This document shows positions 28,419 to 48,395 of a stretch of DNA of 64,000 nt, in pieces (position 1 is the stretch's first letter; every line of letters starts with the position of its first letter). The translations under genes were made by a program, and so were the position numbers. The notes below the pieces were generated by a model. That model searched no databases and had not been told where the DNA came from. It was given only the letters and a program-made list of their open reading frames with translations. The DNA is taken from positions 1,178,001 through 1,242,000 of the forward strand of contig NZ_CP049861.1 in assembly GCF_011299615.1 (NCBI RefSeq), written 5' to 3'. Source of the DNA: Erysipelothrix sp. HDW6C (GTDB taxonomy: Bacteria > Bacillota_I > Bacilli_A > Erysipelotrichales > Erysipelotrichaceae).

Positions 28419-29234
28419 ATGAAACTAATTGCGTTTGATATTGATGGTACAAGCATAAAAAAAAATCGCCGAGTGGCGGAGTCGACACTCCGTATTTTGC
28501 AACAACTGCATGATGACGGTTATATTCTTGTGCCAACAACTGGAAGATCCCTCGATGGTATTCCAAAATCAATTAAAGCCCTGAATATTTGTGACTATGC
28601 GATATCTTCAAATGGTGCTGTAATCACAAATTTAAAAACAGGTGAGACGCTAGCGAAGACAGTTTTCAGTCCTGAACGTGCTGCCAAGGTTTTGGATATC
28701 ATCCGTCCGTATCGTTTATGGACCTCTTTGCATATTGAAAATGAATGCTACGATTCGACATGGTTGCAAAAGACAGTACGCCGTGTGTTTTTCCACGGAG
28801 ATTTTCTCCACAATCGATTTATTCATAATCCTGCCAAGTATGTTCGTGAGCATCAAACCGAAGTCGAGAAAATTCAAGTATTCTCGCTTTCAAAACATAA
28901 GTTAAAACGGTTGTTGAAAGAATTGGATGTGATTGCGGATGTAGCATATCCGATGTCTTCAAAGAACTATTATGAGATAACAAATAAAGGGGCAGAAAAA
29001 GGAATTGCTCTGACTGAATTATGCCAGCATTTGAATGTTCCATTAACCGAAGTTTTTGCAATTGGGGATGATGTCAATGATATATCAATGCTTCGCGTTG
29101 CGGGGATATCCGTTGCCATGGGTAATGCCAAACCTGAAGTCGCTTCGGAAGCGATGTATGTTACGGGAAGTAATAATGAAAATGGATTTGCTAATGCATT
29201 TCAATTATATTTATACAATCAAAAGGAGGCCTAA
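28419..29234 (+). CDS. HAD-family phosphatase (Cof type)
   Basis: 271 residues. Motif I FDIDGTSIKKN with both aspartates (D8, D10), motif II TTGRS, and motifs III/IV in EKGIALTELC and AIGDDVNDISML give a Cof-type (IIB cap) HAD hydrolase of sugar phosphates or FMN. The metabolic role is unknown; the setting suggests a sugar phosphate. Its stop overlaps a short ORF start (TAATG). Confidence 0.85.
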   Translation: MKLIAFDIDGTSIKKNRRVAESTLRILQQLHDDGYILVPTTGRSLDGIPKSIKALNICDYAISSNGAVITNLKTGETLAKTVFSPERAAKVLDIIRPYRLWTSLHIENECYDSTWLQKTVRRVFFHGDFLHNRFIHNPAKYVREHQTEVEKIQVFSLSKHKLKRLLKELDVIADVAYPMSSKNYYEITNKGAEKGIALTELCQHLNVPLTEVFAIGDDVNDISMLRVAGISVAMGNAKPEVASEAMYVTGSNNENGFANAFQLYLYNQKEA

Positions 29235-29269
29235 TGAACATAAATTATAAACAGAAATTCGCACGCTAG
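29234..29269 (+). CDS. Short leader ORF (11 codons)
   Basis: ATG overlapping the HAD stop codon, preceded by a full AAAAGGAGG ribosome site at ideal spacing. It encodes MNINYKQKFAR and stops at TAG just before the structured leader. The strong ribosome site for so short a frame suggests a leader peptide or a decayed gene start. No direct evidence that the peptide matters. Confidence 0.35.
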   Translation: MNINYKQKFAR

Positions 29270-29510
29270 CTAGGAGACGACGCCATAGGTCGTGAGATTT
29301 AATAACCGATACTGGTGGAACATGGCAGAGGCTGTGTTACAGTGGCATGTACAATTCAAAGCATGCAGAGGTCCGGATGGGAAACCTGAAGTTGGAACCA
29401 GAAGTAATCGCATATGCGGTGAATGACGATCTTTTAAATCAAGCCGACACTCAAGAATAAACGGAAGTCCTGTTCACTTATATTAAGTCAATTAATATAG
29501 GAGGACTCAC
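29270..29510 (+). ncRNA. Structured RNA / riboswitch-like leader of the RNHCP gene
   Basis: About 240 bases without a long frame but rich in possible helices: ACGAC/GTCGT (29277-29293), ACATG/CATGT enclosing CTGT/ACAG (29320-29350), GCATG/CATGC as an alternative (29345-29366), and CGCA/TGCG (29409-29418). Near the 3' end, AGTCCT (29466-29471) can pair with AGGACT (29502-29507), which overlaps the ribosome site GGAGG (29500-29504). An AT-rich hairpin (29479-29486 with 29492-29499) lies inside that helix. This is the layout of an aptamer plus a ribosome-site-sequestering platform. I could not assign it to a known RNA class; the raiA motif is one to test. Function is inferred. Confidence 0.5.
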
Positions 29511-29513
29511 TTC

Positions 29514-29825
29514 GTGCGAGTATTAAAGAATTGCAGTTTTATCTGCGAGAATTGCCAGTTAGAAGTTAAAGCATTGAATAATGGAAGCTATCGAAATCAC
29601 TGCCCTTTGTGTCTGCATTCAAAACATGTAGATTGCAAACCAGGAGATCGTAAAAGCAGGTGTCTTGGACTCATGAGACCTGTGTCCTATCGTTACCACA
29701 GTAAAAAAGGATATCAAGTGAAACACATTTGTAAGGTGTGTGCTTATGTGCGATATAATATTGTTGCAACTGATTGTGACCAACCCGATTCCATACAAGA
29801 ATTGATGGAACTTACATTTGAATAA
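29514..29825 (+). CDS. RNHCP zinc-finger domain protein
   Basis: 103 residues with a GTG start nine bases after GGAGG. The name-giving RNHCP motif is at residues 27-31, within C11-x2-C14 ... RNHCPLCLHSKHVD (C30, C33) ... PGDRKSRC ... C73-x2-C76. The cysteine pairs imply a zinc-ribbon-like fold. The function of RNHCP proteins is not known; zinc ribbons of this size often bind RNA or ribosomes. It is under a long structured leader, which suggests regulated translation. Family assignment is firm from the motif. Confidence 0.85.
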   Translation: MRVLKNCSFICENCQLEVKALNNGSYRNHCPLCLHSKHVDCKPGDRKSRCLGLMRPVSYRYHSKKGYQVKHICKVCAYVRYNIVATDCDQPDSIQELMELTFE

Positions 29826-29846
29826 AGTTAGAAAGAAGGCGAACGC

Positions 29847-30182
29847 ATGCAACGTTTTTTTGACGCAATACCACGATGGCTATCAAGCCGCGTATCAATA
29901 TTTATCTATTTATTTCTATTTTTCTACCTTGTTGTCTTTCCAGTCGTTACATCAGTTGTACCTGCAATTGTAAGTTGGGCACCTTCAAGTATGACGCAGC
30001 TCATTCTGGGGAATTATACCAATGTTCTAAGTGCGTTAGGTGCTTCAATTGCTGCGGGTTCAGGTGTTGTAGTTCACAAGAAGGTAACAACAATTCAAAA
30101 GAATCACGATGCAATGAAAGCGTCTTTAGACTCACTTCATGAAAAGTTGGATGCAATGAATTCAAAAGATGTGGATGCGTGA
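29847..30182 (+). CDS. Small hypothetical membrane protein
   Basis: 111 residues. Two predicted TM helices near residues 17-45 and 58-77, then a charged C-terminal helix with heptad-like spacing (IQKNHDAMKASLDSLHEKLDAM) likely to form a coiled coil. AAGAAGGCG precedes the ATG, 22 bases after the RNHCP stop, so it may be cotranscribed. No family recognised. Confidence 0.6.
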   Translation: MQRFFDAIPRWLSSRVSIFIYLFLFFYLVVFPVVTSVVPAIVSWAPSSMTQLILGNYTNVLSALGASIAAGSGVVVHKKVTTIQKNHDAMKASLDSLHEKLDAMNSKDVDA

Positions 30183-30262
30183 GTTAATTGTCTAAATTAT
30201 CATGCTTCACATCAGTTACCATAATGATTCCGATAGGTTCACTTTTGTTGATTGTAAATTTG

Positions 30263-30297: not shown

Positions 30298-30480
30298 ATG
30301 AAGAAAATCTTTCCATTAGCGATTTTAGGAGCAGCGGCAGGTGCTGCAGCTTACTATCTAAACCAAAATAATAAGAAGCATGTTGCCAAGACAATTAATG
30401 CACTTGATGAAATTAGTAAGTCGGCTGAAGAAACTGTTGCCGATCTTGCCCAAGAAGTTATTGAGGAAAAAGAAGCTTAG
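30298..30480 (+). CDS. Small YtxH-like membrane protein
   Basis: 60 residues: a short N-terminal TM helix rich in Ala and Gly (IFPLAILGAAAGAAAYYL) and a charged amphipathic helix to the end. This resembles YtxH/general-stress type small membrane proteins, but similarity is by composition only. GGGAGGG precedes the ATG. The terminator hairpin begins inside the last codons. Confidence 0.6.
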   Translation: MKKIFPLAILGAAAGAAAYYLNQNNKKHVAKTINALDEISKSAEETVADLAQEVIEEKEA

Positions 30481-36845: not shown

Positions 36846-36922
<77 letters not shown>

Positions 36923-36948
36923 TTTCTTATTTACTGTCTAATATATTT

Positions 36949-37024
36949 GGGGCTTTAGCTCAGCTGGGAGAGCGCCTGCCTTGCACGCAGGAGGTCAGCG
37001 GTTCGATCCCGCTAAGCTCCACCA
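36949..37024 (+). tRNA. tRNA-Ala (TGC), copy 1
   Basis: 76 nt with CCA. Acceptor GGGGCTT/AAGCTCC has the G3-U70 wobble pair that identifies alanine tRNA; anticodon TGC. Confidence 0.97.
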
Positions 37025-48213: not shown

Positions 48214-48290
<77 letters not shown>

Positions 48291-48319
48291 TTCATAATTT
48301 CTTGATTTCCTATATATTT

Positions 48320-48395
48320 GGGGCTTTAGCTCAGCTGGGAGAGCGCCTGCCTTGCACGCAGGAGGTCAGCGGTTCGATCCCGCTAAGCTCCACCA
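48320..48395 (+). tRNA. tRNA-Ala (TGC), copy 2
   Basis: 76 nt with CCA, same sequence as 36949-37024. Confidence 0.97.

Follow-up and report, generated by a model that had tools for sequence, protein, structure and literature searches.

Introduction

Directly upstream of an RNHCP zinc-finger gene in the genome of Erysipelothrix sp. HDW6C lies a stretch of 280 nt without a gene, and the question raised by this locus is whether, and in response to what, that stretch controls the gene behind it. The window, the whole stretch of DNA that was analysed, comprises 64,000 nt of contig NZ_CP049861.1; all features described here lie on its forward (+) strand. A preliminary description of the interval 29234-29513 had read it as a riboswitch-like leader, packed with helices and consisting of an aptamer and a switch that hides the ribosome site of the RNHCP gene. 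Here we describe the leader as a conserved structured RNA, which resembles the head of 16S rRNA and has little of the appearance of a classic riboswitch for a small molecule, together with its distribution, its setting and its possible mode of action.

Features of the leader

The RNHCP gene (29514-29825) starts with GTG at 29514 and encodes a protein of 103 amino acids that matches PF12647 (Pfam, 91 bits); its Shine-Dalgarno (SD) sequence GGAGG is located at 29500-29504. No gene was found within 29235-29513, as had been stated. The 11-codon upstream open reading frame (uORF; 29234-29269, peptide MNINYKQKFAR) noted at the 5' end is likewise present, with its ATG at 29234, its stop codon at 29267-29269 and an SD sequence AGGAGG at 29224-29229; the ATG overlaps the stop codon of the upstream HAD-type hydrolase gene. 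A promoter belonging to the leader itself was not found ahead of it on the + strand. The described complementarity of AGTCCT (29466-29471) and AGGACT (29502-29507) was confirmed, with an AT hairpin and the GGAGG enclosed, and the resulting hairpin (29466-29507, predicted -13.3 kcal/mol) would sequester the RNHCP SD. Richness in helices is not apparent from folding energy, which is ordinary (z-score -0.18; 83 of 200 shuffles fold equally well), but it is apparent from the comparison of eight leaders given below.

No Rfam family, and none of the riboswitch classes in Rfam, matches the leader of the window, and the SSU rRNA model (RF00177) does not recognise it at gathering score or at E <= 10. 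Leaders in 12 scanned loci of the 24-locus set introduced below, and that of locus L069, were equally without an Rfam match. Weak matches to caiA and GP20-a, far below the gathering scores, were rejected as identities of the leader. With regard to Rfam this agrees with the earlier description, which could not match the leader to a known RNA family, although its likeness to 16S rRNA already amounts to a known-RNA match of a sort. Nucleotide matches to the leader were absent from 60 relatives, plasmids and phages, and blastn within the genus did not find the leader conserved. A decayed gene, the origin that would have spoken against a functional leader, was rejected: the frame fragments (29296-29457 and a 5' piece) have no homologue in the 60 relatives, Pfam, PHROGs, viral contigs, plasmids or phages.

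Conservation and distribution

A scan of 84,980 species genomes (one genome collection) yielded 24 loci with close relatives of RNHCP. When the leader was compared with these loci by low-stringency blastn, six of them shared one 25-nt segment, which lies some 150 nt ahead of RNHCP, and the whole leaders of these six could be aligned. A seventh further leader, matched by that of L050 at E 8e-21, is carried by a plasmid of Candidatus Protochlamydia naegleriophila and has RNHCP directly behind it. The resulting set of eight leaders comprises those of the window, Sporichthyaceae (L047), Bacillus (L048), Ruminococcus (L049), Clostridiales (L050), Lachnoclostridium (L052), Actinocatenispora (L053) and Protochlamydia (L069). 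At all eight loci, which belong to the phyla Bacillota, Actinomycetota and Chlamydiota (the latter on the plasmid), the RNA is located directly upstream of RNHCP.

The aligned leaders have a mean column identity of 62%, and the covariation that had been proposed as a check is present. The RNAalifold consensus contains 45 pairs, 32 of which are changed on both sides at least once. Paired cells amount to 94.9% in the real alignment versus 73.8% in shuffles and at most 46.8% in slid structures, and the covariation score is 0.71 versus 0.27 and at most 0.16, respectively; these figures are biased in favour of the structure, which was derived from the same eight-leader alignment, and the margin is very large. 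None of 500 shuffles matches the leader structure on any measure.

Leader-bearing loci aside, RNHCP genes without the leader are common (16 of the 24 scanned loci). The leader is absent from all tested RNHCP loci of one family (f12), and no copy accompanies the phage and plasmid RNHCP loci L101-L109. In viral contigs the pattern was matched exactly only once (L070), inside a phage gene, and this match was dismissed as chance. A free-standing copy of the RNA was not seen in 316 genomes of the order.

Resemblance to the 16S rRNA head

The covariance model R1 was built solely from the eight leaders and scores the RNA domain of the window (29273-29469) at 163 bits. In 368 kb of sequence the eight leaders were followed by the organism's own 16S rRNA gene, which was matched over the full model length (53.2 bits, E 8e-15), and the next match reached only 10.6 bits. 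A sample of 392 genomes of the phylum delivered matches at 57-72 bits in 243 genomes, with one to five copies each; these include the own 16S rRNA gene, and the others are probably 16S genes too, judging from their copy numbers. Above 100 bits, only the window's own leader was found in that sample. A sequence-only profile of the leaders also matched the own 16S rRNA at nt 1166-1376 (E 2.4e-15), and none of 20 shuffles did so. The leader domain has 65 columns that are invariant across phyla; of the 46 invariant columns in the 16S span, 40 are identical in 16S rRNA, whereas 30 control fragments reach 17-28.

The assignment of leader helices to 16S helices is our reading, and the numbering follows E. 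coli. The motifs shared by leader and 16S rRNA are, in order, ACARUGG (1236-1242), the arms of h41 with UACAA..AAA, GUYCGGAU (1300-1307), h42, UGAAG..GGAA (1331-1340), AAGUAAUCGC with h43, and GGUGAAUNNGU (1370-1380). In the window the domain is closed by helix P1 in the position of h28 (29290-29302 with 29433-29447), in which 11 of 13 pairs are changed on both sides. The h29-like helix, CUGGU (29312-29316) with ACCAG (29397-29401), is 100% paired and has all five pairs changed on both sides. Its 5' strand precedes GGA and an h30-like stem, which is the exact place of the 5' strands of h29 and h30 in 16S rRNA. The h30-like hairpin is shortened (29319-29338), a short loop standing for h31-h40. 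The h41-like hairpin with its UACAA...AAA loop (29345-29366; both-side changes in five of six pairs) is followed by GGUCCGGAU (29370-29378), the counterpart of about 1299-1307, by a very short h42-like hairpin (29379-29386) and by UGAAG.UGGAA (29387-29396), the counterpart of 1331-1340. An h43-like hairpin with its flanks, AAGUAAUCGC..GCGGUGAAU (29402-29424), corresponds to 1345-1376. Sequence similarity of the 5' strands of h28-h30 is weak by itself, and a composite 16S construct scored no higher than plain 16S with the sequence-only profile, so that this part of the match rests on structure and short motifs. The leader is a miniature of the lower 3' major domain of 16S rRNA (h28-h30 and h41-h43), in which the upper head is replaced by a short loop.

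The minimal 16S rRNA fragment that binds protein uS7 comprises 236 nt of the 3' major domain, and uS7 cross-links to U1240 and C1378 (PMC3548175). In the leader, ACAGUGG (29339-29345) is the counterpart of 16S ACAAUGG at 1236-1242, the segment that holds the cross-linked U1240. The part of 16S rRNA that the leader copies is essentially the uS7 site. Protein uS7 is a known translational repressor that exerts autogenous control via a 16S-like site in mRNA (PMC10931766).

Upstream reading frame, helix P0 and SD hairpin

An SD-driven uORF of 9-12 codons ends at most 7 nt from the first G of the domain in seven of the eight leaders; in the window 3 nt separate its stop from the domain. Within the same DNA, 0.1-0.4% of positions show such an arrangement, which gives a P of about 1e-16 for its presence in seven leaders of eight. 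In the exception, the Lachnoclostridium leader, there is no stop at the usual place and the frame reads on into the RNA. The uORF peptides of the eight leaders are unlike each other and contain no common arrest motif or control codons.

Five nucleotides at the 5' edge of the domain pair with five before the SD hairpin in all eight leaders, forming a helix termed P0. Only 4 of 40320 permutations pair equally well. In the window, UAGGA (29271-29275), which adjoins the uORF stop, pairs with UCCUG (29468-29472) in five of five positions, the latter strand overlapping the 5' arm of the SD hairpin. The RNHCP SD lies inside a predicted hairpin in eight of eight leaders. When P0 is forced, the predicted access to the SD rises in the window (from 0.08 to 0.38) and in L050, L052 and L069, but not in the other four; mutual exclusion of P0 and the SD hairpin is therefore not general, and only in roughly half of the leaders is P0, once formed, predicted to make the SD accessible.

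The RNHCP gene and its setting

All 12 congeners lack RNHCP, as does every other genome in the set of 60 relatives. In relatives the HAD gene directly adjoins a gene for a 60-aa protein, which is located at 30298 in the window, so that the leader, RNHCP and a gene for a 111-aa protein represent an inserted block. The insert of about 1 kb (29232-30240) separates the HAD hydrolase gene from that of the 60-aa membrane protein. The predicted 111-aa membrane protein (29847-30182), which occurs only in the inserted block, has no match in Pfam, NCBIfam or PADLOC. Elsewhere in the window, tRNA pairs are repeated outside rRNA operons, Gly-Asp twice and Ile-Ala twice (1932-2860, 36846-37024, 48214-48395).

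In a tree of 42 proteins all leader-bearing RNHCPs belong to one group of 14 (support 98/89) with long branches; six of these 14 have no leader. Cys and His residues of the zinc-ligand type are invariant. The AlphaFold2 model has a pLDDT of 89, and its comparison with the PDB gave no fold match at E <= 0.001. RNHCP is not known as a ribosomal or rRNA-binding protein, and no study of these widespread proteins was found in the literature searched.

Several other RNHCP loci deserve mention. On the Vibrio coralliilyticus plasmid pOCN014 (L101:1483-2914) the RNHCP gene overlaps rsgA, which encodes ribosome small subunit-dependent GTPase A, an independent hint of a link between RNHCP and the 30S subunit. 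A plasmid of Streptomyces sp. NBC_00984 (L102:1447-2917) carries two tandem RNHCP genes followed by one for an FBP-domain protein. The Protochlamydia plasmid gene (L069:1734-2009) lacks an annotation in its record; compared with its relatives it is short, stopping ahead of the usual QPDD-like tail, perhaps owing to a frameshift. The actinobacterial RNHCP genes at L047:3995-3997 and L053:3971-3973 apparently start with AUC, with GGAGG at the normal spacing of 7 nt; from the upstream stop up to the conserved part of the coding sequence there is no ATG, GTG or TTG in frame. It is as if these two genes were tied to start-codon fidelity. Two human gut scaffolds, MT836270.1 (L105:1284-1501) and MT836461.1 (L106:1324-1501), carry RNHCP behind a different, unrelated attenuator, composed of 12-codon uORFs ending in LERVA or LERVR and a hairpin region CCGGGAGG..CCTCCCG, without a match to R1.

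Proposed mechanism and alternatives

We consider it probable, with real room for doubt, that the leader controls RNHCP translation in cis through its imitation of the 16S head, that it is bound by a head-binding protein such as RNHCP or uS7, and that it is gated by the uORF. The element would consist of three parts, namely the short uORF, the miniature of the lower head and the hairpin over the RNHCP SD. We infer that a protein which normally sits on the 16S head binds the copy in the leader and alters the access to the RNHCP ribosome site. The first candidate for this ligand would be RNHCP itself, in a feedback like that of ribosomal proteins, and the second would be free uS7. Binding could turn RNHCP either on or off, and neither direction is favoured. 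Since the 5' strand of P0 would be occluded by a ribosome terminating at the end of the uORF, the translation state of the uORF would gate the switch.

The preliminary description had offered a ligand, a metal, tRNA, the state of the ribosome or a leader peptide as possible signals. Of these, ribosome state and leader peptide are in line with the present reading; a small molecule or metal has become a less likely reading, because the putative aptamer is a copy of the lower 16S head. The proposed layout of an aptamer with an SD switch is retained in so far as a conserved structured leader and an SD-sequestering hairpin are present, but the aptamer is that copy and not an orphan fold.

An alternative that we regard as unlikely, though it merits attention, is a translation attenuator, in which the signal would be ribosome traffic on the uORF (its initiation rate, or stalling caused by antibiotics or starvation) and the 16S-like domain would mainly provide a fold that has to be either open or closed, without a protein ligand. 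The tightly conserved position of the uORF and the abutment of its stop on the P0 strand agree with it, as does the attenuator with its conserved LERV ending in the two gut scaffolds; the lack of a common arrest motif speaks against it, and folding alone would hardly explain why a 16S-like domain with so many invariant columns is kept across phyla. Improbable in our view is a leader that senses a small-molecule ligand of the 16S head, such as an antibiotic directed against the 30S subunit, and in which RNHCP would have a protective role. The RNA does copy a ribosomal site in an attenuator-like layout, and the cassette is patchy and horizontally spread. The best-known antibiotic sites of the head are h31 and h34, however, and these fall in the part missing from the leader copy; moreover, no resistance genes adjoin the tested loci.

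Still more improbable is a decoy or small RNA that titrates a head-binding protein in trans, RNHCP being merely downstream. A faithful copy of a protein-binding site could work as a sponge, but the RNA is always directly upstream of RNHCP, the SD hairpin and P0 tie it to the start of the gene, and the 316 genomes of the order revealed no free-standing copy. That the leader is debris without function, from a decayed gene or a 16S rRNA fragment, can practically be dismissed: taken by itself, the window does allow a reading as frame fragments, and the core resembles 16S rRNA, but the fragments lack homologues, and covariation in 45 pairs, leader-specific helices such as P0 and a constant position before RNHCP in three phyla contradict it.

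With translational control by head mimicry as the preferred reading, the leader suggests that the ribosome controls RNHCP and is probably also the target on which RNHCP acts. More tentatively, and as a possibility rather than an expectation, RNHCP might be a factor of the 30S head (in assembly, quality control or protection) within a mobile cassette that carries its own uORF-gated sensor modelled on the uS7 site, which would read free head-binding protein or the state of the 30S subunit. The leader gives a concrete lead for assigning RNHCP proteins to 30S biology, and, being compact and self-contained, it can serve as a model of the lower 16S head in studies of uS7 binding and of how the head assembles.

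Comparison with known systems

Translation attenuators of the erm and cat type have a short SD-driven uORF and, behind it, a hairpin that covers the main gene's SD. The RNHCP leader shares this layout, with an SD-driven short ORF at a fixed upstream place in seven of eight cases, but it has no conserved arrest peptide and contains a large 16S-like domain in between. Like a riboswitch, it combines a conserved structured domain with an expression platform. Core motifs of 16S 1225-1385 are common to the leader and Rfam SSU_rRNA_bacteria (RF00177).

In the str operon of E. coli the uS7 site, and in cyanobacteria a similar intercistronic site, are also mRNA segments that resemble the uS7-binding region of 16S rRNA, with a proposed translational role (PMC10931766). 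The str site is located between rpsL and rpsG and controls uS7, whereas the RNHCP leader is the 5' leader of a gene that does not encode a ribosomal protein, copies the domain much more completely (about 150 nt of it) and has in addition the uORF and the SD hairpin. The fragment D3LH, a 236-nt laboratory construct from the 16S 3' major domain that binds uS7 (PMC3548175), covers the same part of 16S rRNA and likewise has a cap where the upper head would be. The leader differs from it in being natural, covarying and linked to a gene.

The leaders of L20, eL15, S15 and S4 also imitate the rRNA site of a protein, but their copies are limited to a few nucleotides or a single junction, and they are leaders of ribosomal protein genes, none of them being located before RNHCP (PMC7247131). 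With its position adjoining the ribosome site at all eight loci and its resemblance to a protein site on rRNA, the RNHCP leader would work like a ribosomal protein leader; the gene behind it (PF12647) is not a known ribosomal protein gene, and the leader is therefore not filed in that class. By this comparison small rRNA mimics are known in other leaders, none of which appears to control a gene like RNHCP. What distinguishes the present leader is that it is an unusually extensive natural mimic of rRNA within an mRNA, absent from Rfam and associated with a gene for a non-ribosomal protein.
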